From the IMG/VR virus record IMGVR_UViG_3300046674_000388, positions 1 to 55,930 of that record: a stretch of 55,930 nt of DNA. The stretch is one strand, 5' to 3'. Position 1 is the first letter of the stretch, and each line of letters starts with the position of its first letter. Under the pieces are notes generated by a model. It was given only the letters and a program-made list of their open reading frames with translations. It was not told the origin of the DNA and did not search any database. Of the stretch, positions 6,636-54,206 are shown piece after piece. Both the position numbers and the translations under genes were made by a program. This DNA comes from a virus.

Positions 6636-6866
6636 TCAGCCCCGCAGCGCAACGAAGGACCCCAGCCCCGGTTCGGTGTACACCAGCCCTTCGGCCCGCA
6701 GCGCCTTGTGGACCTTCTGGCTGGTCGCGGTGGCGATCCCGAATTCACTCTGCAGTTGCAGTACGGACGGGATCCGGCTGCCGGCCGGGTACTCACCGGA
6801 CTCGATGCGCTCGGCAATGACGTCACGGACCTGCCGCCACCGGGGCACGTCGGGTTGGAACTCCAT
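6636..6866 (-). CDS. GntR-family transcriptional regulator (winged-helix only)
   Basis: 76 residues from the ATG at 6866; a longer frame to 6941 exists but would read through the operator-like region. The protein is a full GntR winged helix: PRWRQVRDVIAERIESGEYP, then IPSVLQLQSEFGIATATSQK as the recognition helices, and LVYTEPGLGSFVAL as the wing. No effector domain follows, as in KorSA-type regulators of actinomycete plasmids and short phage GntR proteins. It faces the rightward genes from 7023 and probably represses its own and the divergent promoter. Confidence 0.8.
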   Translation of the reverse strand: MEFQPDVPRWRQVRDVIAERIESGEYPAGSRIPSVLQLQSEFGIATATSQKVHKALRAEGLVYTEPGLGSFVALRG

Positions 6867-6887
6867 GCCAGGACCGTAGGCAGACCA

Positions 6888-6945
6888 TGCCATACCAGGC
6901 GAGATGTGGCATACCTGCCATGGTGTAGCACGCCATAGCATGGTG
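6888..6945. promoter_or_regulatory. Operator-like repeats between GntR gene and rightward genes
   Basis: TGCCATACC (6888-6896) and TGGCATACC (6907-6915) are near-identical direct repeats 19 bp apart. The second is also part of a dyad, TGGCATACCTGCCA (6907-6920). CATGGTG recurs at 6919 and 6939. Spacing by about two helical turns fits a dimeric GntR repressor. Binding is inferred. Confidence 0.5.
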
Positions 6946-15180: not shown

Positions 15181-15215
15181 GCCCGTGGCGGGGCGACACC
15201 ACCCCCGCCACGGGC
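15181..15215 (+). terminator. Strong hairpin between WhiB group and replication genes
   Basis: GCCCGTGGCGGG (15181-15192) pairs perfectly over 12 bp with CCCGCCACGGGC (15204-15215). It lies in a 77-base gap with no gene and could be a terminator or attenuator. Confidence 0.6.
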
Positions 15216-29399: not shown

Positions 29400-30143
29400 G
29401 TGACCACCAGCACCACCTACGCCCGCTACCTCCGCCGCCAGGGCGTACGCGCCAACACCACCCCCCACCGCGCCGCCCACCACATCGCCCTCCTCCGAGC
29501 CGCCGGCATGCGCGACCCCCAGATCGCCGCCGCAGCCGGACGCAGCCCCGCCACCCTGTACCGCATCGCCAAGCGGCACACGGTCACGATCAGCCGCCAC
29601 ACCGAAACCCAAATCCTCGCCATCCCCATCCCCGCGCCCGCCGGGCAAGGCAGCGCCTCCCACACCCCCAGCCACGGCACCGCCCGCCGCCTCCAGGCCC
29701 TCGTCCACCACGGCTACCCGCCCGCCTGGATCGCCCGGCACCTGGGCATGACGCGCAAGCACCTCGGCGACCTCCTCCACCAGCGCCGGGCCGCCGTCAC
29801 CCTCCACACCGCGCAGCGCGTCGAGGCCCTGTACCTCACCCACTGGCACCTGCCGGCCGAGCGGGCCGGTGTCGATGCCGCCGACACGGCCCGTGCCCGC
29901 ACCATCGCCACCGCCCACCACTGGCAGCCGGCCGCCGCGTGGGACGACATAGACCACCCCGGCGCCCAGCCCCAGCACGGCGGCGACACCAGCAGGCAGC
30001 AGGCCGTCATCGAGGACGCGGCGGAGCTGCTGCGTGAGGGCCTGTCGAGGGAGGGTGTCGCGGCGCGTCTGGGGATCGGTTGGGATGCGGTGAGGCAGGC
30101 GTATCGGCGGGCCGGGCGGGAGTTGCCGGACGTGTGTGCTTGA
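29400..30143 (+). CDS. Protein with three helix-turn-helix segments, 247 aa
   Basis: GTG after CAGGAGACGCACC. Three HTH-like units in a row: GMRDPQIAAAAGRSPATLYR (about 36-56), GYPPAWIARHLGMTRKHLGD (about 106-126) and GLSREGVAARLGIGWDAVRQ (about 217-237). Homologous triple-HTH proteins occur in actinophage early regions and are thought to be DNA-binding regulators or nucleases' specificity parts; none is well characterised to my knowledge. A shared terminator lies between it and the convergent 75-aa gene. Confidence 0.65.
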   Translation: MTTSTTYARYLRRQGVRANTTPHRAAHHIALLRAAGMRDPQIAAAAGRSPATLYRIAKRHTVTISRHTETQILAIPIPAPAGQGSASHTPSHGTARRLQALVHHGYPPAWIARHLGMTRKHLGDLLHQRRAAVTLHTAQRVEALYLTHWHLPAERAGVDAADTARARTIATAHHWQPAAAWDDIDHPGAQPQHGGDTSRQQAVIEDAAELLREGLSREGVAARLGIGWDAVRQAYRRAGRELPDVCA

Positions 30144-31395: not shown

Positions 31396-31499
31396 CCCAC
31401 GGCGCGCTCCACCAGCAGGCACCACGGCTGGCACGGCTCAGACCCAGGAGCGCGCACCACCCCAGATCCCCGCCGCACGCCTCCCGCTTGGAGACCGCC

Positions 31500-31721
31500 A
31501 TGCCCCCGCACCTGCCCACCACCTGCCAGATCCTCGCCGGCATCTGGCTCCGCCTCCGGATCCTCGCCCCGATCATCGCGCCGATCCTCGCCGCCCTGTG
31601 GCTGGCCGGTATCGACCTCGCGGGCGGCACGAAGATCGCCGCCGTCCTGGTCGTGCTGACCATGCTCGCCCTCGACTCCGCCCGCCACCCGCACGGCACA
31701 CGGCACGGGGCACGGCAGTGA
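31500..31721 (+). CDS. Two-span membrane protein, 73 aa
   Basis: ATG 31500 after TTGGAGACCGCC. Spans at about 13-35 (LRILAPIIAPILAALWLAG) and 45-62 (IAAVLVVLTMLALDSA), then a His/Arg-rich tail. Small two-span proteins are usual next to transfer-type ATPases of actinomycete plasmids (Spd proteins). Role inferred from neighbours. Confidence 0.55.
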   Translation: MPPHLPTTCQILAGIWLRLRILAPIIAPILAALWLAGIDLAGGTKIAAVLVVLTMLALDSARHPHGTRHGARQ

Positions 31722-31870
31722 GCGCCGCCACAGAAGCCGCCATCGCCGCAGCCGCCGCCGAGCAGGCACGCCAGGCCGCCCACGCATCCGCCGAAGCCCA
31801 GCGCCAAGCCGCCGAAAACCTCGCCCGCCTCGCCGCCATGACCGCAGCCCACCTGGGAGCCCCCCGATGA
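31718..31870 (+). CDS. Ala-rich helical micropeptide, 50 aa
   Basis: GTGA-coupled to the gene before and ATGA-coupled to the gene after. A single long helix (AATEAAIAAAAAEQARQAAH), likely coiled coil, echoing the Ala-rich helix that opens the following membrane protein. Confidence 0.45.
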   Translation: MSAATEAAIAAAAAEQARQAAHASAEAQRQAAENLARLAAMTAAHLGAPR

Positions 31871-33123
31871 CCGCCACGTACGACCACGTCAACGGACACA
31901 TGCCCGCCGACCCCTACCCCAGCATCTCGTTCACCGAGCAGGCCGCCCGCGCCGACGCCACCCGACTCCAGGCCGAGGTCAACGCCGAAGCCGCCCGCAT
32001 CAAGGCCACCGACGACGCCGCATCCCGCGCCACCACACAGGCCGTAAGGGCAGCCAAGGCCGCCGCCGAGATCGCCGGCCTGCAGGCCAAGACCGACGAG
32101 ATCCAGCGCGCCGCCGCGGCGAAGGCCGACATCGAGGCGAAGGCCCGCGCCGAGCAGGCCGCCATCGACCGGGCCGAGCAGGCCGAGCGCAACCGGGTCG
32201 ACGCCCTCAACGCCCGCGCCGAGAAGACCGCCCGTCAGCTCGTCACCGTGTCCGTGCTCATCGCCCTGCCGCTGCAGCTCGTCGCGTTCTGGCTGATGAA
32301 CCCGGCGCTGATCGTGGTGCCGGCCGGTCTGGAGTACGCGGCGTGGGTGATGCTGGCCCAGGTCGACGCGGCCGTTGCCGCTGGACGCCGGGCCTGGCAC
32401 TACATCGCTGCCACCCTGGTCGTCGCGATGTTCGCGGCGTGGATGAACTGGTCGCACGGCCCGGACCTGATTGCGGACCATGGGCAGCTGGTCGGTGCGG
32501 TTGGCGCGTTCTTCTCCCTCCTCGGCCCGTTGACGTGGGCGCTCCATACCCACGGCAAGATCGCCAAGCGGGAGGGTCGCCTGCCCCGCGCCGAACGCAG
32601 GGCCGCCAAGCAGGCAGCTGCCGCCGCCGCCAAGCTGGCCGAGCAGGAGCAGGCCGCCGCCACCGCCGACACTCTCGAACTCGACGCCCGCCGCCACCGC
32701 GACCACGCCGACGTGTACGCCCGCGCCGCCTACATCGCTTCCGCCGCCGGCCACCTCACCATCACCGACCAGACGTGGGACAGGGCCTGGCAGGACGTCA
32801 AGGGTGAGGGTGCGCAGATCGGTGAGACCGCCGAGTCCATTGCTCAGCGGAAGGCCGCCACCGAAGCGCTGCGTGCCGCGACCGTGGGTGACGTGACGCC
32901 ACTCCCTGTGCTTATGCAGGACGGGCGGATCCGCGTCTACCGCGAGCCGAAGAAGATCCAGCTCAACGCCCAAATCCCCCCCACCGTTCAGCGCGTCACC
33001 GCGAGGGTCACAGACAGGCCCAAGCCGACCCCGCCGCGGCGCCGGAAGGGCGACACCCCGGCTTACTCGCCGCTGGCCCGCAGCGCCGCCGCAGAGACCG
33101 CCAAGCGCGCCGCCAAGCAGTAG
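31867..33123 (+). CDS. Four-span membrane protein with coiled-coil flanks (transfer partner?)
   Basis: 418 residues. A coiled coil (about 25-120) leads to four membrane spans at about 124-143, 147-165, 178-195 and 207-226, then another basic coiled coil (about 235-265) and a basic Pro-rich tail. The layout and the place directly before the FtsK/TraB-like gene recall SpdA/SpdB-type or DUF2637 membrane proteins of actinomycete conjugative elements. It may anchor the translocase. Membrane topology is clear; family is inferred. Confidence 0.6.
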   Translation: MTATYDHVNGHMPADPYPSISFTEQAARADATRLQAEVNAEAARIKATDDAASRATTQAVRAAKAAAEIAGLQAKTDEIQRAAAAKADIEAKARAEQAAIDRAEQAERNRVDALNARAEKTARQLVTVSVLIALPLQLVAFWLMNPALIVVPAGLEYAAWVMLAQVDAAVAAGRRAWHYIAATLVVAMFAAWMNWSHGPDLIADHGQLVGAVGAFFSLLGPLTWALHTHGKIAKREGRLPRAERRAAKQAAAAAAKLAEQEQAAATADTLELDARRHRDHADVYARAAYIASAAGHLTITDQTWDRAWQDVKGEGAQIGETAESIAQRKAATEALRAATVGDVTPLPVLMQDGRIRVYREPKKIQLNAQIPPTVQRVTARVTDRPKPTPPRRRKGDTPAYSPLARSAAAETAKRAAKQ

Positions 33124-33160
33124 CCCACCACCCCCGCCGCGATCATCCAGGAGCACCCCG

Positions 33161-35413
33161 ATGTCCGAGTACACGACCGGCCCCACCCCCGGCCCCGCCG
33201 ACGACGAACCCGGCGTCTACGACCTCACCAAGAACTTCCCCGCCGAGTACCTCGCCGAGCTGGAAACCGCGATGCAGGCCGAAGCCTCACTCAGCGAGCA
33301 CGGCCGCCGCGGCGCCATGGTCGGCACCATCATCGAACCGACCATCCCGCAGCAGCGCGGTTGGGCCACCGAGGCTGCGGCACGGGCGCTCCCCGCCTGG
33401 GCTGCCGACCCCGAGACCCTGGCCCGGTCCGTCCGCCAGGCCCGCGCCGAAGCCGTCTACCGGGTCCTGTTCCACACGATGCGGACCCCCGCCTACGCCG
33501 CCCGCGTCCTGCTCCTCGCCAGCCGAGGCGCCTGGGCCGCTCCCCGCGACGCCGCGCACTTCTTCCTCGCCGGCGAGTACAACACCGGCATCAAAGCCGC
33601 GAAGAAGAGCCGCGACGACGCCCGTGTCCTGGTGCTCCGCGACGAGAAGGCGTCCGTCACCAAGGACCGGCAGCGCTCCGCCCGCCACCTGGTCGCCACC
33701 GGCGGGTCCCTCACCTACGTCGGCGCGGCCGTCCTCACCGCCATGGCCGGCCAGTGGATCGTCGCCGGGCCGCTCCTCGCCCTGCTGACCGGCGTCCTCG
33801 CCGTCATCGGCCACAAGGACAAGACCGGAGCCGACCCCGCGTTCCACCTCCTCGACGCCACCCCCACCACCACCGGGCCCGTCACCGACACACGCATCGA
33901 GGAGGCGTTCCGCGCCGCCGGCGTCATCGGCGCCAAGGAGGCCCTGCAGTTCACCGGCGCTGGCACCGGTCGGGAGAAGACCGCCGCCGTCGCCACCCTC
34001 AAGCTGCCCGCCGGCACCATCGCCGCCGACGCCATCAAGAAGCTCCGCGAGATCGCCGGCGCCCTCGACGTAGCCGCCTCCCAGGTCGACATCCGCCAGG
34101 AAGGCGCCGAGTCCCGTCTGTCCATCTGGATCGCCGACAAGGACCCGTTCGCCACCTCCCGCCGCTCCCCCCTCCTCACCCACCGCGGCCCCATCGACGC
34201 GTTCACCGACGGCATCCCCGTCGTCTTCGACAAGCGCGGCCAGGCCGTCCCCCTCACCATCCGCGACGCCATGCTGCTGATCGCCGGCATGACCCGCTCC
34301 GGCAAGGGCGTCGGCTACTCCTCCGTCGTCTGCGGCGCCGGCATGGACCCGCGCATCAACATCCGCAACGTGTACGGCAAAGCCACCGGCGAGCACGTCC
34401 CCTACGCCCCGGTCTGCGCCACGTTCTTCAAGCGCAACCCCGAGCGCCTCGCCCTGCTCCTGCAGATCCTGGAGAAGGAGCTCCTGCGCCGCGAGGACCG
34501 CCTTGCCGACCTCGGCACCGACAAGCTCACCCCCAGGCTCCTGGAAGAGATGCCGATCGAGCTCGTCCTGATCGACGAGTTCGCCTTCTACGTCGGCGAC
34601 GAGAAGGACGAGACGGCCAAGCAGATCATCGCCTCGCTGAAGCAGATCGCCGCGATGGGCGCCGCCCTCGGCGTGCTCCTCGTCCTCGCCACCCAGGACC
34701 CCAACGCCAAGCTCGTCCCGTCCCCTCTGCGCCGGAACTTCCTCAACCGGTGGGCGATGCGGGTGGAGTCCGCGGACGCCTCCAACGCCATCCTCGGCGG
34801 CGCCGCATCGGGCGCCGGCTTCGACTCCTCGAAGCTGCCGGAGGGAACCCCGTCCGGCGTCGGCCACCTGCGCACCATCGACGGCACCCGGCTGACCCGC
34901 TCCTACTTCATCGACCGGGAACGCGGCGAGGTCGACGAGCTGATCGCCCGCGGCGTGGTGTACCGGTCGGAAGCTGGCCGCCTGGCCGGGCAGTTCGACG
35001 ACCCGATCGAGCAGGCACTGCTCGCCGCGACCGGCTTCACGTCCGCCTCGGGCGGGCCGCGTGGGGACGGCCGGCCGGGCAAGGCCGACATGCGGCAGTC
35101 CAGCGTGCGGGGCCTCCTCGGCGAGCTCCTCCAGGTGTTTGCCTCGGCCGGGAACCCGGAGCGGCTGACCACCTCGGCAATCGTCGCCGGCCTGGCCCGG
35201 ATCAACCCGGCCGACTGGCAGAAGGTCGCCGACGACACCGCGGCGAACGCCGGTACTGCGCTGAAGAACGCCATCACCCGCGCCCTCGCCAAGGACGCCG
35301 CCGAGGCTGGTCGTCCGCCTCGGATTCTCGACTCCGACCAGTGGGGCGGCAAGGACAAGGGCCGCGGCTACTGGCTGACCGCCGTTCGTGCCGCTGCCGG
35401 AATTGTCCAGTAA
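33161..35413 (+). CDS. FtsK/TraB-like DNA translocase
   Basis: 750 residues. Two membrane spans lie at about 180-222 (TYVGAAVLTAMAGQWIVAG). The ATPase has Walker A GMTRSGKG (376-383), in which Arg takes the place of the usual Gly and Gly follows Lys, and Walker B LVLIDEF with Asp472-Glu473. LLVLATQDPNAKL at about 505 is the FtsK-type sensor region. The C-terminal 130 residues are helical with no clear gamma (KOPS-reading) domain. Such proteins move double-stranded DNA in Streptomyces conjugation (TraB, TraSA) or chromosome segregation. In a phage it could help replicate, partition or deliver DNA. Confidence 0.8.
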   Translation: MSEYTTGPTPGPADDEPGVYDLTKNFPAEYLAELETAMQAEASLSEHGRRGAMVGTIIEPTIPQQRGWATEAAARALPAWAADPETLARSVRQARAEAVYRVLFHTMRTPAYAARVLLLASRGAWAAPRDAAHFFLAGEYNTGIKAAKKSRDDARVLVLRDEKASVTKDRQRSARHLVATGGSLTYVGAAVLTAMAGQWIVAGPLLALLTGVLAVIGHKDKTGADPAFHLLDATPTTTGPVTDTRIEEAFRAAGVIGAKEALQFTGAGTGREKTAAVATLKLPAGTIAADAIKKLREIAGALDVAASQVDIRQEGAESRLSIWIADKDPFATSRRSPLLTHRGPIDAFTDGIPVVFDKRGQAVPLTIRDAMLLIAGMTRSGKGVGYSSVVCGAGMDPRINIRNVYGKATGEHVPYAPVCATFFKRNPERLALLLQILEKELLRREDRLADLGTDKLTPRLLEEMPIELVLIDEFAFYVGDEKDETAKQIIASLKQIAAMGAALGVLLVLATQDPNAKLVPSPLRRNFLNRWAMRVESADASNAILGGAASGAGFDSSKLPEGTPSGVGHLRTIDGTRLTRSYFIDRERGEVDELIARGVVYRSEAGRLAGQFDDPIEQALLAATGFTSASGGPRGDGRPGKADMRQSSVRGLLGELLQVFASAGNPERLTTSAIVAGLARINPADWQKVADDTAANAGTALKNAITRALAKDAAEAGRPPRILDSDQWGGKDKGRGYWLTAVRAAAGIVQ

Positions 35414-35470
35414 TGACCACCCGGGACCGGCCCGGGACGGCCTGAGAAACCGCAGGTCATAGCCGTGACC

Positions 35471-35516
35471 ACCGTCGGGACGGCGGCCCTCTCCTCGGGG
35501 TAGCCGTCCCGGCGGT
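35471..35516 (+). terminator. Terminator-like hairpin after the translocase
   Basis: ACCGTCGGGACGGC (35471-35484) pairs with GCCGTCCCGGCGGT (35503-35516) with one mismatch. The region 35414-35619 has no gene. Confidence 0.55.
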
Positions 35517-35619
35517 CAGCCTCCGATCCCAGTGCCCGTCCCGGCCCTGACCTGCACCGATGCAGCCCATCCCAGGCTACATCCCGACCCTCGAACCATG
35601 ACAAACAGGAGGAATCGCC

Positions 35620-36084
35620 ATGACCGAGCAGACCACCCCCGCCCTCGCCCCGATGCCCGGCGTCGCCCTGATCACCTACCCGGACGGCACGACCCGCTAC
35701 GAGTACACCGACGAGCTGCAGGCCGCCATCGACCGGGCCGAGACGGCCGGGTACGCGCCCGTCGTCCAGACCATCACCACCCCGGCGCCCGTCGAACCCG
35801 CCGCCCGTCCGGCGCTGATCGAGCCGTGGATGGTGCGCGGCGCCGCCGGCCTCGGCCTCGCAGGCGGCACGGTGGCCCTCGCCCCAATCGCAGCGTCCGC
35901 AGTCGGCGCCATGTCGGCCGCGCTCGGAGACCTGCTGCACCTCGCCCTGCAGGTCGGCGGCGCCGGGCTCGCCGCCTTCGTCCTGCTGCGACTGCTGACC
36001 GGGCGGAAGGCCGGCGGGCAGGGCGTTGAGGTCGTGCAGACCGTGACGCAGACCATCACCAACGTCGTCCGCATCGAGAAGTGA
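35620..36084 (+). CDS. Membrane protein, 154 aa
   Basis: ATG after CAGGAGGAATCGCC. N-terminal soluble part (ALITYPDGTTRYEYTDELQA) then two spans at about 75-95 and 105-125, and a short tail (VEVVQTVTQTITNVVRIEK). It overlaps the next gene by GTGA. It may belong to the same membrane module as the translocase. Confidence 0.6.
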   Translation: MTEQTTPALAPMPGVALITYPDGTTRYEYTDELQAAIDRAETAGYAPVVQTITTPAPVEPAARPALIEPWMVRGAAGLGLAGGTVALAPIAASAVGAMSAALGDLLHLALQVGGAGLAAFVLLRLLTGRKAGGQGVEVVQTVTQTITNVVRIEK

Positions 36085-36722
36085 GCCCGACCATGCGACT
36101 GTTCGGCGGCCCCACCCACGTGGTGCGGATCCTTGGCCCGCTCACCGTCAACGGCCAGCCACTGGCCTGCCCGGAGAAGGGCTGCGGCGACACAGGCAAG
36201 GCCGGCGGCCACACCCTCACCGCGGAGGGCGAGAAGGGCGTCGCCACGATCACGTGCGGCGCCAACCCCGAGCACCGGTTCCGGGTGCCGGACATCACGA
36301 TCGCCCTCGTCAAGGCGCTGCCGCGGTCGGGCCGGTTCGAGCACAAGCAGGGCGACGTCCGGCTGCAGGGCATCGCCGCCCGGCCCGGCAAGGGCGACAA
36401 GAAGCCCGCAGCGGCCGGCAAGGGGCGGGCCCTCGGCCAGCAGCCCGCACCGGCCAAGACGCCCAGCCGCGGCAGCAGCGGACCGGGCCTGGCTGGGGTC
36501 GTCGTCGCCGGGCTGCAGACCGTCACCGCCACCGTCGGCACCGTCGGGCAGATCGCCGGGGCCGCCGGGCAAGGGGCCCGCGCACTCGGCGACGTCGCCA
36601 AGGCGGGCAGCAACGCCATCAGCCTGGCTCGCGACGGGGTCAAGGCAGCCGACCGGGCCGCCGGACGCCGCCACCAGGCCGCGCTCGGCGAACGCCAGAC
36701 CGGACCAAAGCGGGCCCTGTGA
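36081..36722 (+). CDS. Phage protein with Cys pair and hydrophobic C-terminus, 213 aa
   Basis: Start at GTG 36081 by overlap; ATG 36093 is the alternative. N-terminal domain (RLFGGPTHVVRILGPLTVNG; LACPEKGCGD; ATITCGANPEHRFRVP) with three Cys resembles small zinc-binding domains. A Lys/Pro linker (about 105-140) leads to a hydrophobic Gly/Ala stretch (VVVAGLQTVTATVGTVGQIA) that may insert in a membrane. Function unknown. Confidence 0.5.
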   Translation: MSPTMRLFGGPTHVVRILGPLTVNGQPLACPEKGCGDTGKAGGHTLTAEGEKGVATITCGANPEHRFRVPDITIALVKALPRSGRFEHKQGDVRLQGIAARPGKGDKKPAAAGKGRALGQQPAPAKTPSRGSSGPGLAGVVVAGLQTVTATVGTVGQIAGAAGQGARALGDVAKAGSNAISLARDGVKAADRAAGRRHQAALGERQTGPKRAL

Positions 36723-38852: not shown

Positions 38853-38889
38853 ACCTGTCCCGACCCCCTGACACCGTGCATACGGGGTC

Positions 38890-38984
38890 GCGGCGGCCCG
38901 CAGGTCTCCCCCCACCACGGGCCGCCGCCGTCCTCACGGCGGGTGGGCCGCACAGCCCCCGGGACGACGAGACCCGGGGGGCTG
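38890..38984 (+). other. Two hairpins upstream of the terminase genes
   Basis: GCGGCGGCCCG (38890-38900) pairs with CGGGCCGCCGC (38918-38928) over 11 bp; CAGCCCCCGGG (38953-38963) pairs with the stretch ending GGCTG at 38984, with one bulge. No gene lies in 38853-39025. It could hold terminators and the packaging site, which often precedes the small terminase gene. Confidence 0.5.
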
Positions 38985-39025
38985 ACCCATGCACTCCCTA
39001 CCCTGCCCAGCAGGAAGGGGAGACC

Positions 39026-39568
39026 ATGACCAGCAACACCGAGCACAACCCGGACCAGCCACGCGACGGCAACGGCCTGTTCATCAAGACCATCACCAGC
39101 ACCGAACGCGACGCCGCCGCCGCCCGCCTCCGCTCCGAAGGCAAGAGCTACCGGCAGATCGCCACCAACCTCGGCATCGACGTCCACACCGCCCACGACG
39201 CCGTACGCCGCGCCATGCAAGCCGTCGTCGCCCCCGCCGGCGAGCAAGCCGTCAACTACGAACTGGGCCTCCTCGGCGAGGAACTCCTCCGCCTCGACGA
39301 CCTGTACGCCACCGTCGTGGAGGTACTTGAACGCGAGCACGTCACCGTCTCGCAGGGCCGCATCGTCCGCGACGACGATGGCGGCGCCGTCCCCGATGAC
39401 GACTGGATCCTCAAAGCCGTCGACCGGCTGGTCCGCATCGACGAAGCCCGCCGCCGCAATTCCGAGTCCCGCCGCCGTCTCCTCGGCCTGGACCAGCCCA
39501 CGAAGACCCAGGTGTCCGGCGGCGTCACGTACGAGGTCGTCGGCATCAACCCGGAGGATCTGCGATGA
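39026..39568 (+). CDS. Putative terminase small subunit (HTH protein)
   Basis: 180 residues; ATG after AAGGGGAGACC. The HTH is at about 28-65 (AARLRSEGKSYRQIATNLGI then DVHTAHDAVRRAM). A helical middle (about 75-150) and a short C-terminal beta end (TYEVVGINPEDLR) follow, as in small terminases that bind pac or cos DNA and contact the large subunit. It is two genes before the large terminase. The call rests on HTH and position. Its last 26 bases are repeated downstream. Confidence 0.6.
   Translation: MTSNTEHNPDQPRDGNGLFIKTITSTERDAAAARLRSEGKSYRQIATNLGIDVHTAHDAVRRAMQAVVAPAGEQAVNYELGLLGEELLRLDDLYATVVEVLEREHVTVSQGRIVRDDDGGAVPDDDWILKAVDRLVRIDEARRRNSESRRRLLGLDQPTKTQVSGGVTYEVVGINPEDLR
39543..39568 (+). 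repeat. 26-bp perfect direct repeat, copy 1
   Basis: Identical to 39989-40014. It encodes the end INPEDLR, the ribosome site GGAGGATCTGCG and the overlap ATGA of the next gene, so each copy joins two genes in the same way. Confidence 0.85.
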
Positions 39569-40215: not shown

Positions 40216-41535
40216 GTGAACAGCACCGTCGTCCGGTACGAGCCGCGTGGTGCCGCGGCCGAGCTGTTCCGTGCCCGCGACCCAGAGCTGTGCATCGTCG
40301 GCGCCGCCGGTACGGGCAAGTCCCTGGCCTGCCTGTACCGCATGCACCTCGTCGCCCTGTCGAACCCGGCCTTCCGCGGGCTGATCGTCCGTAAGACCGC
40401 CGTCAGTTTGACCTCGACGACGCTGGTCACGTTCAAGAAGAAGGTCGTCAAGGAGGCCATCGCTTCCGGTTTGTGCCGCTGGTACGGCGGCTCGGCTGAG
40501 CAGGCGGCCGGCTACTACTACGACAACGGCGCCGTGATCAACGTCGGGGGGATGGACAAGCCCGAGAAGATCATGTCGTCCGAGTACGACCTAGTGTTCG
40601 CCGACGAAGCCACCGAACTCACCCTCGACGACTGGGAGGCCATTGGTACGCGCCTCCGCAACGGCGGCCTCGCCTGGCAACAACAAGTCGCAGCCGCCAA
40701 CCCCGGCCACCCCACCCACTGGCTCAAGCAGCGCGCCGACGAGGGCAAGATGCGCATGCTCACCAGCATCCACCGCGACAACCCCCGCTTCGTCAACGCC
40801 GACGGCACCCTCACCCCCGACGGCACCGGCTACATGGCCAAACTCGACGCCCTCACCGGCGTCCGCCGCCTCCGCCTCCGCGACGGCAAATGGGCCGCCG
40901 CAGAGGGCCTCGTCTACGAAGACTTCGACCCCACAGCCCATGTCGTCGACCAGGCCGTCATCAAGCCCGAATGGCGCCGGACCTGGGTCATCGACTTCGG
41001 CTACACCAACCCCTTCTGCTGGCAGGACTGGGCCGAGGACGCGGACGGCAGGCTCTATCTCGTCCGGGAGATCTACGCAACGAAGGGCCTCGTCGAAGAC
41101 CATGCCCGGACCATCCTGGGCATCGTGGCGCCCGGCGGGAAGTGGATCGAGCCGAAGCCTCGGGCGATCATCTGCGACCACGACGCCGAAGACCGCGCCA
41201 CCCTGCAGCGCCACCTCGGCATGGGCACCATTGCCGCCCACAAGACCGTCAAAGACGGTATCCAAGCCGTCCAAGCCCGCCTCCGCCCCGCCGGCGACGG
41301 CAAGCCCCGCTTGTTCATCTGCGCAAATGCCATCGTCGAACGCGATCCTGCTCTCGCCGAGGCCAAGAAGCCAACCTGCACCCTCGAAGAGATCGTCGGG
41401 TACATCTGGGACGCTCAGCCGGGTAAGCAGCCGAAGGAGGCCCCGGTGAAGCAGGACGACCACGGCATGGACGCGCTCAGGTACGTCGTCGCGGAATGCG
41501 ACCTCGCCTCCCGTCCCCGAGTGAGGTGGCTGTGA
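40216..41535 (+). CDS. terL: Terminase large subunit
   Basis: 439 residues; GTG after GGGGAGACC. The packaging ATPase has Walker A GAAGTGKS (29-36) and Walker B LVFADE (126-131). The RNase-H-like nuclease has acidic candidates Asp260 (TWVIDFGYT), Asp321 and Asp323 (IICDHDAED) and Asp near 418-424 (QDDHGMDALRY). It is a Terminase_3/6-type protein that cuts concatemers and drives DNA into the prohead with the small subunit. All motifs are intact. Confidence 0.9.
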   Translation: MNSTVVRYEPRGAAAELFRARDPELCIVGAAGTGKSLACLYRMHLVALSNPAFRGLIVRKTAVSLTSTTLVTFKKKVVKEAIASGLCRWYGGSAEQAAGYYYDNGAVINVGGMDKPEKIMSSEYDLVFADEATELTLDDWEAIGTRLRNGGLAWQQQVAAANPGHPTHWLKQRADEGKMRMLTSIHRDNPRFVNADGTLTPDGTGYMAKLDALTGVRRLRLRDGKWAAAEGLVYEDFDPTAHVVDQAVIKPEWRRTWVIDFGYTNPFCWQDWAEDADGRLYLVREIYATKGLVEDHARTILGIVAPGGKWIEPKPRAIICDHDAEDRATLQRHLGMGTIAAHKTVKDGIQAVQARLRPAGDGKPRLFICANAIVERDPALAEAKKPTCTLEEIVGYIWDAQPGKQPKEAPVKQDDHGMDALRYVVAECDLASRPRVRWL

Positions 41536-41711
41536 CCAGTCTCATTGCCCGTGCCCGCGGCGCACGCACCGCACTGCTGACCGTCGTCGGTCTCGGCAGC
41601 CTGTCCGCATCGGCGTGGGTTGCATTCGGTCTCGCCGCAGGCCTGGCCGCTGCAGGCGCCGCTGCCCTTGTCCTGGAGTACCTGACGACCGACGAGGAGA
41701 CCCGCCGGTGA
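41532..41711 (+). CDS. Small membrane protein between terminase and portal, 59 aa
   Basis: GTGA overlaps both neighbours. Two hydrophobic stretches (LLTVVGLGSLSASAWVAFGL; AAGLAAAGAAALVLEYL). A similar short gene lies at this point in many actinophages. Role unknown. Confidence 0.6.
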   Translation: MTSLIARARGARTALLTVVGLGSLSASAWVAFGLAAGLAAAGAAALVLEYLTTDEETRR

Positions 41712-42940
41712 AGTCACCCCTAGGCACGCTCATCGCCCGTGCCGCCGAGACGCCGGTGCCGTTCTCTCCGACCCGAACCAGCGGCACGCTGGGTGCAGCG
41801 TGGGGCCGGCCGTCCGGGATGGCCGCGCAGATGCGCGCCATGGGCTCCGTCGGCACGCTCTTCAGCATCGTCAACCGCACCTCCACCTCGACCGCGCAGG
41901 TCGAATGGAACCTGTACCGCAAGGCCAAGTCCGGGCGCGACGACGAACGCACCCTCGTCACCTCCCACGCGGCTCTTGACCTGTGGAACAAGCCGAACCC
42001 CTTCATGCCCCGCACCGAATTCGTCGAGGTCGAGCAGCAGCACATCGACCTGACCGGAGAGGGCTGGTGGGTGATCGCCTACGACGCCCGGTCGTCGATC
42101 CCGCTGGAACTGTGGCCGGTCCGCCCCGACCGCATGACACCCATCCCGTCAGCGACGCACTTCCTCGCCGGCTACATCTACACGAGCCCTGACGGCGAGC
42201 AGATCCCCCTCGGCCTGGACGAGGTCATCCAGATCCGCATGCCCAACCCTCTGGACCCGTACCGCGGCATGGGCCCTGTGCAGTCGATCCTCACCGACCT
42301 CGATGCCACCCGTTTCTCGGCAGAGTGGAACCGCAACTTTTTCATTAACTCGGCTGAGCCGGGCGGCATCATCCAAGTCGATCGCCGTCTCCAGGACGAC
42401 GAGTTCGACGAGATGCGGCTGCGTTGGAACGAGCAGCATCGTGGCGTTGCGGCCGCCCACCGTGTGGCGATCATCGAGCACAACGCCCAGTGGGTCGACC
42501 GGAAGTACACGCAGCGCGACATGCAGTTCGCTGAGCTGCGGCACGTGTCCCGTGATGTCATCCGTGAGTCCTTCGGCATGCCGGCGTTCGCACTCGGCGA
42601 GGTCACCGACGTCAACCGGGCCACCGCAGAAGCGTCGAAGACGTGGTTCGCCGAGCAGCTGACCGTACCGAGGCTGGAGCGCTTCAAGTCGGCTCTCAAC
42701 TTCGACCTGCTGCCGCTGTACGGGCCCACCGCGCAGGGCCTGGAGTTCGACTACTGCAGCCCCGTCCCGACCAATGCGGAGGCGGAGAACGCGGACCTCA
42801 CCGCCAAGGTCAACGCCGCGGCCGCTCTCGTCACTGCCGGGTGGGATCCCGCCGCTGCGCTCGACGCTGTCGGCTTGCCGCCGATGCCGTTCATCGGCGC
42901 CGGCCAGGCCCCGGCAGGGCCGCTGAAGATCGGCCAGTAG
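41708..42940 (+). CDS. Portal protein (HK97 family)
   Basis: 410 residues from GTG 41708. MGSVGTLFSIVNRTSTSTAQ, then ALDLWNKPNPFMPRTEFVEV, EVIQIRMPNPLDPYRGMGPV, and the C-terminal FGMPAFALGEVTDVNRATAE are the order of Phage_portal (PF04860-type). It forms the dodecameric gate of the head and contacts the large terminase during packaging. Ala/Pro-rich tail at the end. Confidence 0.9.
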   Translation: MKSPLGTLIARAAETPVPFSPTRTSGTLGAAWGRPSGMAAQMRAMGSVGTLFSIVNRTSTSTAQVEWNLYRKAKSGRDDERTLVTSHAALDLWNKPNPFMPRTEFVEVEQQHIDLTGEGWWVIAYDARSSIPLELWPVRPDRMTPIPSATHFLAGYIYTSPDGEQIPLGLDEVIQIRMPNPLDPYRGMGPVQSILTDLDATRFSAEWNRNFFINSAEPGGIIQVDRRLQDDEFDEMRLRWNEQHRGVAAAHRVAIIEHNAQWVDRKYTQRDMQFAELRHVSRDVIRESFGMPAFALGEVTDVNRATAEASKTWFAEQLTVPRLERFKSALNFDLLPLYGPTAQGLEFDYCSPVPTNAEAENADLTAKVNAAAALVTAGWDPAAALDAVGLPPMPFIGAGQAPAGPLKIGQ

Positions 42941-42974
42941 CCAGGTTCCGTACCGGCCGGACGCCAACATCCCA

Positions 42975-42991
42975 GTAACGGACACCGTTAC
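42975..42991 (+). promoter_or_regulatory. Palindrome before the protease gene
   Basis: GTAACGG and CCGTTAC, separated by ACA, are a perfect 7-bp inverted repeat, ending 11 bases before the protease ATG and just before its ribosome site GGGAGG. It might be an operator or a translational hairpin. Confidence 0.4.
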
Positions 42992-43002
42992 AGGGAGGCT
43001 GG

Positions 43003-43890
43003 ATGCCTGGCAGGCTGCGTACCGCCCGGCCCCGGGCACAGCTGATGCAGGGCCGCAACGACTGGTACCGGATCGCCAACTCGCTCGGCTCCGGCCCGGC
43101 GCAGGTCCACATCTACGACGAGATCGGCTACTGGGGCATCACCGCCTCGGACTTCGTGCGTGAGCTGTCGGCTCTCAACGTCACCGAGATCGACTTGCAC
43201 CTCAACTCCCCTGGTGGGGAGATCTTCGACGGCATCGCCATCTGTAATGCCTTGCGCTCCCACCCAGCCACGGTCACCACCTACGTGGACGGGCTTGCCG
43301 CGTCGATCGCTTCTGTGATCGCGATGGCTGGTGACCGGATCGTCATGGCGCCCAACTCGCAGTTGATGATCCACGACGGGTCGGGGCTGTGCATCGGCAA
43401 CGCGGCGGACATGAGGCAGATGGCCGAGCTCCTCGACCGCCAGTCGAACAACATCGCCGAGGTCTACGCCGCGCGGGCTGGTGGCACCGTCGAGGACTGG
43501 CGGGCCCTGATGGAGGCGGAGACCTGGTACACCGCCGAGGAAGCGGTCACTGCCGGCCTTGCGGATGAGGTGGCGTCCGCGCGTTCTCTCACCGATGACA
43601 ATTCGCCTGAGAATTCTTGGGACCTGAGCATCTTCAGGTACCCGAGCCGCTCTGAGGCTCCCGCCCCGCAGCCCGTGAACGCTGCGGTGGAGTGCCAGCC
43701 GCAGGCCGTCACCGAGCCTCCCGCGGTCACTCCGGAACCCGAGCCGGTCGTCGAAGCCACGGCCACCGAGCCTGCGCCGACTGTGGCCGAGCCGCAGCCC
43801 GACCCGTGGGCCACCGCGATCACACACCTCACCACCCCCGCGCCGTCACCCGATGACGCGTTCGCATCCCTGACGGAGGCACTCCGATGA
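43003..43890 (+). CDS. Head maturation protease, ClpP-like
   Basis: 295 residues. The ClpP fold spans about 30-195: LHLNSPGGEIFDGIAICNAL, Ser101 in DGLAASIASVIA and His124 in LMIHDGSG. The third catalytic residue cannot be named with certainty. It is the prohead protease that trims scaffold and capsid in HK97-type heads. The Pro/Glu-rich C-terminal 90 residues may act as scaffold. ATGA overlap with the capsid gene. Confidence 0.9.
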   Translation: MPGRLRTARPRAQLMQGRNDWYRIANSLGSGPAQVHIYDEIGYWGITASDFVRELSALNVTEIDLHLNSPGGEIFDGIAICNALRSHPATVTTYVDGLAASIASVIAMAGDRIVMAPNSQLMIHDGSGLCIGNAADMRQMAELLDRQSNNIAEVYAARAGGTVEDWRALMEAETWYTAEEAVTAGLADEVASARSLTDDNSPENSWDLSIFRYPSRSEAPAPQPVNAAVECQPQAVTEPPAVTPEPEPVVEATATEPAPTVAEPQPDPWATAITHLTTPAPSPDDAFASLTEALR

Positions 43891-45281
43891 CCGCACCGAC
43901 CGCCCTCCCGACGGGCACGCCCATCCCCGCCAACGCGGGCGAACTCGCCGAGATGCTCGCCGACTCCAGCCGCCTCGCCCCCGTCCTCGCCAACCGCGAA
44001 GCCCTCGGCGAGTTCATCAACAGCTACGCCGACAAGCAGCAGAGCGCCGGCACCGACATCAACCGGCAGGTCGCCGAAGCCACCCAGCGTGAGCTCGCCA
44101 ACTGGCTCCGCGACAACGGGCAGAAGACCGACAAGGACAGCATCCAGCGGCCCAACCTCAACCCGCAGACGAGCCGCGGCACCAACGCCAGCATGCTCAC
44201 CTCCCACCGCCAGGGCACCGCCCACAACCCGCACGCCGCTGGGGCCTCCCTGGACCGGATGTTCAACGACGGCGTCGACTACGTGCGCACCATCTGGCAC
44301 AAGACCCCGGAGGCCAGCGTCGCAGAGAAGCTCGACGCCCTGCGGAACGCCGCGAGCAGCGTCAGCCCCTCCGACGGCGGCTTCCTCGTCCCCGAGAACC
44401 TGCGCTCGCAGCTCCTGCAGATCGCGCTGGAGGAGTCCGTCGTCCGGCCGCTCGCCACCGTCGTCCCGATGGACTCGGCGCGCGTCCCCTTCCCGATGAT
44501 CGACTCGACGACCAACTCCGGCTCGGTCTTCGGCGGCATGATCGCCTACTGGGGAGAAGAGGGCGCCGCCCTCACCGACTCCAGCCCGAAGTTCGGCCGC
44601 GCCACCCTCGACGCCAAGAAGCTCACCGGCCTCAGCGCGGTGCCCAACGAGCTCCTGCAGGACTCCATCGTCAGCTTCTCCGCGCTGATCGAGAACCTGT
44701 GGCCCAAGGCCCTCGCGTTCAGCGAGGACGCGGCGTTCATGTCCGGCACCGGCGTCGGCGAGCCCCTCGCCTTCATGGGCGCCGGCAACACGGCCGCCAT
44801 CGCGGTCGCGGCCGAGGCGGGACAGCCCAGCGGCACGATCCTCTACGAGAACATCGTCAAGATGTACGCGCGGATGCTGCCGTCCTCGCTGTCGAAGGCC
44901 GTGTGGATCTGCTCTCCGGACGCCCTGCCCGAGCTGTTCACCATGGCCCTCGCGGTCGGCACCGGCGGCGGCCCGATCTTCGTCAGCAGCGCGGTCGGCT
45001 CCGCCCCGATGACCATCTTCGGCCGTCCGCTGATCGTCTCCGAGAAGGCGGGCACCCTCGGCTCCCGCGGCGACATCGTCTTCGCGGACCTGTCGTACTA
45101 CCTCGTCGGCGACCGGCAGACCATGACCGCCGACTCCTCGACGGACTTCAACTTCGGCTCCGACAAGACCACGTTCCGCATCATCCAGCGAGTCGACGGC
45201 CGCCCCTGGCTCAAGAGCCCCATCACTCCGAAGAACGGCGGCAACACCCTGTCGCCGTTCGTCGAGCTCGCGGCCCGCTAA
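43887..45281 (+). CDS. Major capsid protein (HK97 fold)
   Basis: 464 residues. The N-terminal helical part (about 1-150) is probably a delta/scaffold domain removed by the protease. The mature part starts near VSPSDGGFLVPENLRSQLLQ and continues EESVVRPLATVVPMDSARVP, FGRATLDAKKLTGLSAVPNE and the C-terminal FRIIQRVDGRPWLKSPITP, the order of Phage_capsid (HK97) proteins. It forms the icosahedral shell. A strong hairpin follows, which may set its high level relative to later genes. Confidence 0.9.
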   Translation: MTAPTALPTGTPIPANAGELAEMLADSSRLAPVLANREALGEFINSYADKQQSAGTDINRQVAEATQRELANWLRDNGQKTDKDSIQRPNLNPQTSRGTNASMLTSHRQGTAHNPHAAGASLDRMFNDGVDYVRTIWHKTPEASVAEKLDALRNAASSVSPSDGGFLVPENLRSQLLQIALEESVVRPLATVVPMDSARVPFPMIDSTTNSGSVFGGMIAYWGEEGAALTDSSPKFGRATLDAKKLTGLSAVPNELLQDSIVSFSALIENLWPKALAFSEDAAFMSGTGVGEPLAFMGAGNTAAIAVAAEAGQPSGTILYENIVKMYARMLPSSLSKAVWICSPDALPELFTMALAVGTGGGPIFVSSAVGSAPMTIFGRPLIVSEKAGTLGSRGDIVFADLSYYLVGDRQTMTADSSTDFNFGSDKTTFRIIQRVDGRPWLKSPITPKNGGNTLSPFVELAAR

Positions 45282-50758: not shown

Positions 50759-50892
50759 CCCGAGCCCGCACGATCCTCGGTCTGTGCGACCGCTGGCACA
50801 AACTGCCGTCCGAGGTGCTGGCCGAGCCGGCGGAGATGCTCCGCCTGCTGGAGATCGCCCACATGGGCCGACGCGAGGAGGTGCCTGAGTGA
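50333..50892 (+). CDS. Tail assembly chaperone, -1 frameshift form
   Basis: Read in the start frame to 50674, then in the -1 frame from base 50674 to the stop at 50890-50892, giving about 186 residues. The -1 frame stays open from the slip and encodes ARTILGLCDRWHKLPSEVLA and AEPAEMLRLLEIAHMGRREE, the typical gpGT-like end. Its stop overlaps the tape measure GTG. Both forms are normally needed in a fixed ratio for tail assembly. Confidence 0.8.
50668..50674 (+). other. Programmed -1 ribosomal slippery site
   Basis: C CCT TTG (heptamer CCCTTTG, X XXY YYZ form) is in the correct phase: codons CCT at 50669-50671 and TTG at 50672-50674 of the chaperone frame. Confidence 0.8.
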
Positions 50893-53687
50893 ACATCGTC
50901 GAGATCCTGGTCACCGCGAAGAACCTCACCGGGCCCGCGTTCGCTGAGGCCAAGGCGGGGGCGACGGCCATGGAGTCGTCCATGGCCAAGCTCAACAAGG
51001 TCGCGAACGCCAGCGCGCTTGCCATCGGCGCGATCGGCTTCGAGGCCGTCAAGATGGCCAGCAAGTTCGACTCGGAGATGACACTCCTGGTGACGCAGGC
51101 CGGCGTCGCCGAGGACCAGCTCGGCGGCCTGAAGAAGGGCGTCCTCGACATCGCGGCGAAGGTCGGTAGCGACCCGGACTCGCTGGCCGAGGCCCTGTTC
51201 CACGTCGAGAGCAACTTCGAGTCGATGGGCATCACCTCCGCGCAGGCCCTCAAGCTGACGGAGACCGCCGCGAAGGGTGCCGCGGTCGGTCACGCAGACC
51301 TGGTCGACGTCACCAACGCCTTGACGGCTGCCGTCGCGGCAGGCATCCCTGGCGTCGAAGACCTCGACCAGGCGATGGGTGTCCTCAACGCGACCGTCGG
51401 CGTCGGCGACATGAAGATGCAGGACCTGGCGAACGCGTTCAGCAGCGGCATGGTGGCGACGGTCAAGGGCTTCGGCTTGTCCATCACTGACGTCGGCGCT
51501 GCTCTCGCCGTTTTCGGTGACAACAACATTCGCGGCAGCCTGGCCGGCAACCAGCTGCGCATGTCCGTCATGGCGCTGGCCAAGCCCATCTCGACGTCCG
51601 AGGCCGCCCTGAAGACCCTCGGTCTGACGCAGACCACTCTCGCCGACGACATGCAGCGTGGCGGCCTGAAGCTCGCCCTCGAAGACCTCGTCGGCCGCAT
51701 GGACGCTGCGGGCATCACCGCGGACAAGCAGGGTCAGATCATCACGGATGCGTTCGGCCGGAAGGCCGGTGCCGGCCTTAACGTCCTCGTCGGTCAGATG
51801 GACCGTCTGGAGTCGAAGTACCCGGCGCTGGAGGAAGGCGCGAAGGGTTTCGGGGCGGCGTGGGAGCGGACGCAGCAGACGTTCGCGCAGCAGACACAGC
51901 AGTTGGAAGGCTCCCTGCAGGCGCTGATGATCACGCTCGGGGAGAAGCTCATCCCGCCGTTGCAGAAGGCCACGACGTGGATGCTCAACAACCGCGACAC
52001 CATGATTGACATGGCGAAGGGTGTCGGCATCCTCGTCACGGCGCTGGCAGGCATCGCCGTTGTCAGCAAGGTCGCGGCGGGCATCAAGACCCTCACCACG
52101 GCGTTCGAGGCCGCCAACACGGCCATGCTCGCCTACCGCACACGGGTGGCCGAGGCGCAGATGGCGTCCCTCGCTGCGACGGGCAACGTCAACGGTCTCG
52201 GCGCCGCCTTCACAGCCTTGTCGACGAAGGCGAAGATCGCGCTCGCAGCGACCGCGATCGGCCTGATCGTGGCCGTCGCCTACAAGCTGAACGAGGCCAA
52301 CCAGAAGGCCGCCCCGTCCGTCGACAAGATGACCACGTCGCTGGAGGCCCTTGGCCGGGCCGGGAGCCGCTCCGGACAGCTCGCCGAGACGTTCGGCGGC
52401 GGCCTGGAGAAGCTCGGGTACGCCGTCGACCGGGTCGCCGGCAAGACCCACGGCATGGACCGCTTCAACGACGCCATGAACAAGGTCTTCACGCTGGGCA
52501 TGGGCAAGTCGAACACCATGAAGGAGGCCGCCGACCAGATCAACTCGATCGATGAGGCCCTCGCCGGCATGGTGCAGGGTGGTCACGCAGACCTGGCCGC
52601 AGCAGCGCTGAAGAAGCTTCAGGATGCGCTCGCGGCGAAGGGCGGCGACCCGAAGCAGCTCGCCGACGAGATGCACAAGTACCAGGACGCCTTGGCTGCC
52701 ACGGCGGAGACGGAGAACATCACTGCCGAGAGCATGGGTGAGCTCGGCAAGCGGGCCATGGAGACGTCCAAGGCGCTGGATGCGCAGGCGATGACGGCCA
52801 AGGGCCTCAAAGAGGCCATCTCCGACCTGAACGACGTCAACCGGGCCGCGCTCGACAGCATGGCCGGGTTCGAGGCTGCGATCGACGCCGCAGCGAAGGC
52901 CGCCACCGACGGCGGTGGCGCGCTGAAGATGACCCACGGCGAGCTGAACCTCACCTCGGAGCGGGCCCGTACCGCCGAGGCTGCTCTGACTGACCTCGCG
53001 TCGAAGACGGACGCCGCTGCCGTGGCCGCCCTCAACTCCGGCGACACGATGGAGCAGGTCAACAAGATCTACGACCGTGGCCGGGACAAGCTCATGGCCT
53101 ACGCCCAGCAGATGGGCCTCAACAAGGACGAGGCCCGCGCCCTCGCCGAACAGATCCTCTCGACCCCGGACAAGACCGCGTACCTGAAGGGCGACTCGGA
53201 GGATCTGAAGGCCAAGCTCGCCGACGTCGAGCACCGCCTCGCCACCGCGACCGGAGAGAAGAAGGTCCAGCTCCTCGCGGATAAGCGGAAGCTTGAAGTC
53301 GACCTGTGGACCGCGCAGGCAGAGATCGACGCACTGCACGGCACCACCGTGAACCTGAAGGTCCGCACGGTGTACGTCAACGGTGACGAGTACCAGCAGG
53401 GCCGGGCGATGGGCGGCATCATCGGCGGCGCCGCCGGCGGGGGTGTGCGGGGTGGCTTGACGTGGGTGGGTGAGCAGGGCCCGGAACTGGTCCGCCTCCC
53501 GCCCGGCGCGCAGGTCCACACCAACCCGGACAGCCAGCGCATGGCCGCCAGCGGCAGGGGCGGTCCGATCTTCGTCAACCTGACCCTCGACTCCAGTGGT
53601 CGGCCCGTCGATGACGCCCTGCTGGAGATTTTCCGACGGGCAATCAAGATCCAGGGCGGCAACGTCCAGGCCGTACTCGGACAGTAG
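50889..53687 (+). CDS. Tape measure protein
   Basis: 932 residues from GTG 50889. N-terminal NIVEILVTAKNLTGPAFAEA opens a long helical protein. Hydrophobic stretches near 378-398 and 447-465 (ALAATAIGLIVAVAYKL) are usual. The C-terminal WVGEQGPELVRLPPGAQVH is a classic tape-measure end phrase. It sets tail length; at about 0.15 nm per residue a tail of about 140 nm is expected (rule of thumb). No lysozyme or peptidase domain was seen. Confidence 0.9.
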   Translation: MNIVEILVTAKNLTGPAFAEAKAGATAMESSMAKLNKVANASALAIGAIGFEAVKMASKFDSEMTLLVTQAGVAEDQLGGLKKGVLDIAAKVGSDPDSLAEALFHVESNFESMGITSAQALKLTETAAKGAAVGHADLVDVTNALTAAVAAGIPGVEDLDQAMGVLNATVGVGDMKMQDLANAFSSGMVATVKGFGLSITDVGAALAVFGDNNIRGSLAGNQLRMSVMALAKPISTSEAALKTLGLTQTTLADDMQRGGLKLALEDLVGRMDAAGITADKQGQIITDAFGRKAGAGLNVLVGQMDRLESKYPALEEGAKGFGAAWERTQQTFAQQTQQLEGSLQALMITLGEKLIPPLQKATTWMLNNRDTMIDMAKGVGILVTALAGIAVVSKVAAGIKTLTTAFEAANTAMLAYRTRVAEAQMASLAATGNVNGLGAAFTALSTKAKIALAATAIGLIVAVAYKLNEANQKAAPSVDKMTTSLEALGRAGSRSGQLAETFGGGLEKLGYAVDRVAGKTHGMDRFNDAMNKVFTLGMGKSNTMKEAADQINSIDEALAGMVQGGHADLAAAALKKLQDALAAKGGDPKQLADEMHKYQDALAATAETENITAESMGELGKRAMETSKALDAQAMTAKGLKEAISDLNDVNRAALDSMAGFEAAIDAAAKAATDGGGALKMTHGELNLTSERARTAEAALTDLASKTDAAAVAALNSGDTMEQVNKIYDRGRDKLMAYAQQMGLNKDEARALAEQILSTPDKTAYLKGDSEDLKAKLADVEHRLATATGEKKVQLLADKRKLEVDLWTAQAEIDALHGTTVNLKVRTVYVNGDEYQQGRAMGGIIGGAAGGGVRGGLTWVGEQGPELVRLPPGAQVHTNPDSQRMAASGRGGPIFVNLTLDSSGRPVDDALLEIFRRAIKIQGGNVQAVLGQ

Positions 53688-54203: not shown

Positions 54204-54206
54204 CCG

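Follow-up and report, generated by a model that had tools for sequence, protein, structure and literature searches.

The stretch of DNA analyzed here (the window) is a 55,930-base virus record of IMG/VR without confirmed ends and with a G+C content of 70%. At positions 31488 to 36722 it carries a module of six intact, co-oriented open reading frames (ORFs) that overlap or are closely spaced, situated between the early genes and the DNA-packaging genes and on the same strand as the late genes. A sequence-only reading had described this region as an actinomycete-type DNA-transfer module within a phage, a view that is upheld by the TraB grouping, the SpdB2 partner, the plasmid-like gene order and the clt-like site set out below. 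The small two-span protein, the Ala-rich micropeptide, the coiled-coil membrane protein and the FtsK/TraB-like translocase that it had listed were all recovered. Of the two further membrane-type proteins that it had proposed, the 154-residue (aa) product has two spans, whereas the 213-aa product has a single weak hydrophobic stretch and is not clearly a membrane protein. A conserved non-coding gap after the translocase gene had been overlooked. The features of the module are as follows.

31488 to 31721, plus strand: two-span membrane protein, 77 aa (hydrophobic spans 25 to 43 and 44 to 62), a candidate Spd-type protein, with a 62% identical ORF in the same position in L014, a 19.7-kb piece of a sister phage, and a weak match to PHROG 20032.
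31718 to 31870, plus strand: Ala-rich 50-aa peptide, overlapping both neighbors.
31867 to 33123, plus strand: SpdB2/DUF2637-type coiled-coil membrane protein, 418 aa (BLASTP, iterated hidden Markov model [HMM] search, AlphaFold).
33161 to 35413, plus strand: TraB-type FtsK/SpoIIIE double-stranded DNA (dsDNA) translocase, 750 aa (Pfam, PHROG, tblastn, tree, Foldseek).
35414 to 35619, no strand: clt-like non-coding site, 206 bp, with five GGGAC/GTCCC copies and the conserved pair GCAGGTCA ... TGACCTGC.
35620 to 36084, plus strand: two-span membrane protein, 154 aa, of a family common to Streptomyces plasmids (BLASTP E value, 0.002; HMM matches in plasmids and L014).
36081 to 36722, plus strand: 213-aa protein with a Cys/His cluster and an Ala/Gly-rich C-terminal part (BLASTP, HMM).

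The translocase is, as judged from its sequence and relationships, of the TraB type. It matched Pfam PF01580 (FtsK/SpoIIIE; E value, 1e-6) and PHROG 1358 (E value, 3e-25), and both its Walker A motif (GMTRSGKG, at residue 376) and its Walker B motif (ELVLIDE) are intact. The AlphaFold model (predicted local distance difference test score [pLDDT], 80.5) has the FtsK-motor fold, and its best solved matches in Foldseek were the Escherichia coli FtsK motor (2ius; E value, 2e-13) and TcpA of pCW3 (6o1w; E value, 3e-13), which is a conjugation coupling protein. Only the motor was matched in the translocase, while a true FtsK control also matched the 4TM, alpha, and gamma domains, and identity as a cell division FtsK was rejected on this ground. 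The C-terminal domain (residues 652 to 745) gave no separate domain match and is predicted to have a winged-helix-like H-E-H-H-H-E-E topology. A tblastn search returned 48 plasmid relatives, 44 of them on Streptomyces plasmids, and 12 of the 48 cover at least 80% of the translocase at 34 to 40% identity; the pZL1 protein is 37% identical over 97% of the length, and pSVH1 TraB is 30% identical over 375 aa (E value, 4e-36). In a maximum-likelihood tree of 83 proteins, the window translocase shares a clade (support, 95) with plasmid proteins, and a larger clade (support, 99) unites it with the TraB proteins of pSVH1 and pSG5, with true FtsK outside. The phylogeny thus groups the protein with conjugative-plasmid TraB, and clustering with packaging or replication proteins only was not seen.

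A profile search of viral contigs revealed relatives in 41 IMG/VR contigs or loci; a single-sequence scan had found none, and the profile was required to detect them. The 418-aa protein upstream of the translocase gave BLASTP matches to a plasmid DUF2637 protein (E value, 2e-7) and to pSVH1 SpdB2 (E value, 8e-6). Its AlphaFold model (pLDDT, 82) predicts a coiled-coil helix (residues 22 to 144) followed by a helical membrane part (146 to 172, 177 to 201, and 206 to 235), and a fold search of the PDB with this protein returned zero matches. Iterated HMM searches placed the SpdB2 family next to traB, on its upstream side, in pSVH1, pSG5, large Streptomyces plasmids, and viral contigs; the two genes are adjacent in 37 of the 41 viral contigs, and three of the remaining four are cut by contig ends. 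Small ORFs occupy the Spd positions of the module, with weak homology. The 50-aa peptide, whose GTG start overlaps the preceding stop and whose end forms an ATGA overlap with the next gene, had zero family matches in Pfam and PHROG scans. The 213-aa protein belongs to a plasmid family (BLASTP E value, 4e-6; HMM) and is 71% identical in L014, and together with the 154-aa gene it matches, in the same order, the two genes after traB on pZL1, NBC_01241, and the Streptomyces jietaisiensis plasmid.

The gap between traB and the 154-aa gene is a probable clt-like cis site, lying at the position of clt in pSVH1. Its five GGGAC/GTCCC copies exceed the number in every non-overlapping 206-bp stretch of the 56-kb record. 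In many gaps, GCAGGTCA lies about 36 bp and TGACCTGC about 132 bp past the traB stop. Plasmid gaps at the same position measure 214 to 241 bp. The pSVH1 gap holds four copies of GACCCGGA, the repeat described for recognition by TraB. Within the gap, the commonest 7-mer stood above local background at a P value of <0.01 in 31 of 68 loci and of ≤0.05 in 46 (combined P value, 2e-47). Repeat types are the same among related elements and different among distant ones. Over 63 elements, similarity of repeat profiles correlated with identity of the TraB C terminus (r = 0.61), the motor (0.44), and the N terminus (0.39); in partial Mantel tests, the C terminus remained associated with the repeats when the motor was held constant (0.47; P value, 0.0005), while the value for the motor with the C terminus held constant was −0.06. 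Repeat type therefore appears to track the TraB C-terminal domain, as would be expected if this domain recognizes the site. TraB hexamers are known to act at clt, which has 8-bp repeats (PMC4170104). A conserved RNA structure in the gap is disfavored relative to a DNA site array: a single-sequence fold gave a z score of −4.2, the alignment supports only a short GGTCA/TGACC helix, and an Rfam search of the gap returned nothing.

The gene content around the module is that of a genuine temperate phage, with integrases, terminase, portal, capsid, and tape measure genes.

4227 to 5267, plus strand: tyrosine recombinase of phage.
6636 to 6941, minus strand: single-domain GntR regulator without UTRA, of unproven membership in the module.
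8028 to 9443, minus strand: serine integrase of phage.
40216 to 41535, plus strand: terminase large subunit.
41615 to 45281, plus strand: portal (start at 41615), ClpP-type protease (43003), and HK97 capsid (43887).
50889 to 53687, plus strand: tape measure protein.

The capsid gene lies about 8.5 kb downstream of traB. The window also encodes an exonuclease VIII-type nuclease, WhiB, and two DNA methyltransferases, and the product of positions 15185 to 16216 matches a phage-type replication initiator family. A megablast search of positions 20 to 44 kb against 50,697 phage records returned zero matches, and tblastn against the same records found no TraB or SpdB2 of the window type; the matches were confined to short stretches of the FtsK motor in Firmicute phages. 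Among the related viral records, 39 of the 41 were searched whole for virion genes: 26 have an HK97 capsid gene, 12 a tape measure gene, and 32 at least one of the two. The capsid gene is on the same strand as traB in 24 of the 26 and starts 8 to 13 kb downstream in 16. Of 11 plasmid records examined, one, pPaSha2, has a capsid gene.

Comparison of the window with two related phage contigs suggests that parts of the module move as a unit. The genes of L014 that flank the module, from the helix-turn-helix (HTH) gene at 29400 to the capsid gene, are 57 to 78% identical to those of the window, but its SpdB2 is 20% and its TraB 43% identical, and an approximately unbiased test rejects the two TraB proteins as sisters (P value, 0.0005). 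A further contig, L046, resembles the window in its portal (73%) and capsid (65%) and has a TraB from a different clade. The gap repeats also differ. Because the flanks are conserved while SpdB2, TraB, and the repeats diverge, motor, partner, and site appear to have been exchanged together while the phage frame stays; for L014, an alternative is fast divergence under selection. The sequence-only reading had suggested that the phage may have captured a transfer system; a single capture is too simple, as on the tree the phage and plasmid labels must switch at least five times. The multi-HTH protein at 29400 to 30143 (PHROG 1590), directly 5′ of the module and 60% conserved in L014, marks its left border in this phage lineage.

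The module was next compared with known systems. The plasmids pSVH1 and pSG5 share with the window a TraB-type motor, SpdB2 upstream of it, a repeat-bearing gap of 206 to 241 bp after traB, and small genes around. On pSVH1 the order is GntR, two small genes, SpdB2, a small gene, TraB, the gap, and small genes, and this order, with SpdB2 or DUF2637, recurs on pSG5, pZL1, and others. Upstream, the two plasmids have a GntR-type repressor, and they also have plasmid replication; the window differs in its phage genes, in the GGGAC repeat in place of that of pSVH1, and in the 154- and 213-aa downstream genes. The closest gene order is that of pZL1-type modules on large Streptomyces plasmids (L002, L003, L004, and L007), which run small gene, DUF2637, small gene, FtsK, gap, 172-aa gene, 219-aa gene, with TraB proteins 35 to 37% identical to that of the window; they differ in their plasmid backbone and a divergent GntR gene upstream, and no capsid was found on these records. 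The closest precedent is the Streptomyces plasmid-phage pZL12 (ZL12, GQ919031), described where PMC3583192 cites it as a phage with plasmid transfer functions. It has a GntR regulator and an FtsK-like protein, 71c, but this is very distant from the window TraB (HMM E value, 9e-12; no significant BLAST match), no SpdB2 was matched by HMM, and pZL12 is a plasmid with ParA/ParB, whereas the window has integrases. The cultured Thermobifida phage P1312 has a 61% identical terminase and, near its serine integrase, an FtsK-like protein that is closest to ZL12_71c (26%); no SpdB2 match was found. The 42-kb circular pPaSha2 of Pseudonocardia alni combines phage genes with adjacent DUF2637 and FtsK-like genes, as in the window, but its TraB is much more distant and forms a long branch in the tree. 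Actinomycete integrative and conjugative elements (AICEs) such as pSAM2 and SLP1 likewise combine an integrase with TraB-type transfer but have Rep genes (PMC3218068) and lack virion genes. A limited literature search found no description of a TraB/SpdB2/clt module in phages.

A KorSA-type GntR regulator at 6636 to 6866 had been proposed as part of the set. The actual ORF spans 6636 to 6941, lies 25 kb away from the module, and encodes a protein of 101 residues that has one domain and lacks UTRA, so that the KorSA-type assignment was not sustained; no UTRA domain was found in the whole record. The GntR protein encoded just upstream of plasmid modules, and of some modules in phages, is longer and, where tested, of the UTRA type. 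We treat GntR-UTRA as a regulatory accessory and its absence as a difference within a family whose transfer parts are present. Searches of the record gave no Prim-Pol, with a working control, no RepAM, for which the control also gave no match, and no match to ParA or ParB. The likeness to actinomycete integrative and conjugative elements drawn by the sequence-only reading holds for the transfer parts, but the window is no AICE, since it carries virion genes and gave no Prim-Pol match. The window does have virion genes, as do pZL12-like plasmid-phages, while a plasmid-phage with ParA/ParB is unsupported by the lack of a ParA/ParB match.

Previous studies have established that Streptomyces TraB transfers dsDNA from clt, with Spd-dependent spread (PMC4170104, PMC9513070, PMC3218068), and that SpdB2 binds DNA, oligomerizes, and contacts TraB (PMC4170104). 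At the level of sequence, the window combines a TraB-type motor, an SpdB2-type partner, small Spd-like proteins, and a repeat array after traB at the clt position; hexamer formation at the site, dsDNA transfer, mycelial spread, and a benefit to the phage are what we infer from it. We consider it probable, at roughly 0.6, that the phage carries a pSVH1-type conjugation and spread module that moves phage DNA without virions. Phage DNA would be circular after excision or early in infection, and, at a hyphal tip or septum, TraB hexamers would bind the gap site with the predicted winged-helix domain at their C terminus. Subsequent pumping by TraB would require neither a nick in the double-stranded phage DNA nor a type IV secretion channel, and SpdB2 together with the small Spd proteins would aid passage through the membrane. 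The phage could thereby spread virion-free between touching hyphae and along mycelial compartments, and integrase would fix it in new compartments. Swapping of the TraB-SpdB2-site cassette between phages and plasmids may serve to keep co-resident elements from mobilizing each other's DNA. The wider proposal, of a large and mostly uncultivated group of integrating Streptomycetaceae phages that have a second mode of spread, as dsDNA moved by TraB through mycelium without capsids and with a cognate clt site, with the module fixed before the packaging genes and cassette swapping confining transfer to their own DNA, is more tentative, and we put it somewhat short of even odds.

Several points weigh against this interpretation. 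Transfer by the window element is itself a deduction from its genes, and assignment of the small Spd proteins relies on position and not on clear homology. No GntR-UTRA repressor was found in the record, nor was a dedicated gene for autonomous replication or partition among those searched (RepAM, Prim-Pol, ParA, and ParB, RepAM without a positive control); because of the latter, the transferable form would need to be an excised or phage-replicated circle. By exact 7-mers, the repeats of the window's own gap are modest (P value of about 0.04). The TraB C terminus adjoins the gap, so that the correlation between them may be due in part to physical linkage, and the related loci in that comparison are not independent.

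Of the other explanations, the one that survives best is that TraB and the Spd proteins pump phage DNA across sporulation and vegetative septa, keeping the prophage or excised phage in all spores and compartments without transfer between individuals. FtsK/TraB motors do act at septa, spreading has been discussed as a stability function, with SLP2 stabilized by spdB2 (cited in PMC4170104), and the authors of the P1312 study read their FtsK-like protein only as DNA segregation; the simple regulator 25 kb away, in place of a transfer repressor, also fits. However, the phage has integrases, and a chromosomal prophage would not need the module; the plasmid relatives with the same module, of the pSVH1 type, are transfer modules, and the variation in cognate sites better fits element-specific recognition. 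We therefore regard a role in vertical stability as unlikely, though deserving of weight. A role in lytic development, in which the motor, with the membrane proteins, carries replicated phage DNA to neighboring compartments before lysis and so widens the burst within one mycelium, is suggested by the location of the module between early and packaging genes on the late-gene strand, a place kept in 16 of the 26 capsid-bearing relatives. It is less probable still, the gene set being the same in kind as that of non-phage plasmids without a lytic cycle. That the module is a non-functional relic or passenger would need no cause beyond accidental capture and would agree with the missing KorSA-type repressor and plasmid replication genes; this seems very improbable, given that all six ORFs are intact and the main ones show a coding-type pattern of G+C at third positions, that the Walker motifs are intact, that the complete module is retained in the same position in the sister phage L014, and that many phage relatives retain motor, partner, and site. 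Finally, a plasmid or AICE fragment misassembled into a phage contig can be dismissed despite the unconfirmed record ends, because the same junctions occur in the independent contig L014 (HTH gene on the left, 60%; terminase, portal, and capsid on the right, 70, 74, and 66%), the G+C content is 0.726 in the module versus 0.725 in the stretch before it, and isolate-derived viral contigs show the same architecture.

If virion-free transfer by the module is correct, these temperate phages would unite conjugation with integration and virions, which would make the boundary between phages and conjugative elements less sharp and give such phages an advantage in multicellular hosts, where virions must cross many cross-walls. 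The variation of the clt-like repeat type with the TraB C-terminal domain would amount to a testable recognition rule, with dozens of natural TraB/site pairs. Of the 48 plasmids with a related motor, 42 were typed as non-mobilizable; our reading, if correct, suggests that, contrary to such mobility typing, an actinobacterial prophage without relaxase or type IV secretion genes is not thereby non-conjugative.

Further observations concern the related loci. A RapZ-like small protein (by plasmid annotation) lies within about 11 kb of TraB modules at 14 loci, on plasmids and phages alike (for example, L002:16565-16948 and L044:692-1072; annotated as an ABC-ATPase in P1312), and is absent from the window. 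Although listed as a plasmid, pPaSha2 (L013) is a phage genome. The 36-kb circular S. jietaisiensis plasmid (L004) carries, besides its TraB module, a DnaB helicase, a recombinase, and a terminase-family gene, with no capsid match on that record, and it could be a phage satellite or a decayed phage-plasmid.

Elsewhere in the window, a tyrosine recombinase and a serine integrase (4227 to 5267 and 8028 to 9443) occur in one phage genome. No convincing coding ORF was seen on the plus strand in the roughly 1.7 kb after the tail genes at the right end (54204 to 55930). The product of 38876 to 39568 has the PHROG label RNase E, but an HTH and a position before the large terminase gene point to a small terminase subunit. 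The secreted-looking protein at 908 to 2020 has a weak glycoside hydrolase family 43 match, below the Pfam cutoff, and is possibly a tail-associated or lysogenic-conversion enzyme.

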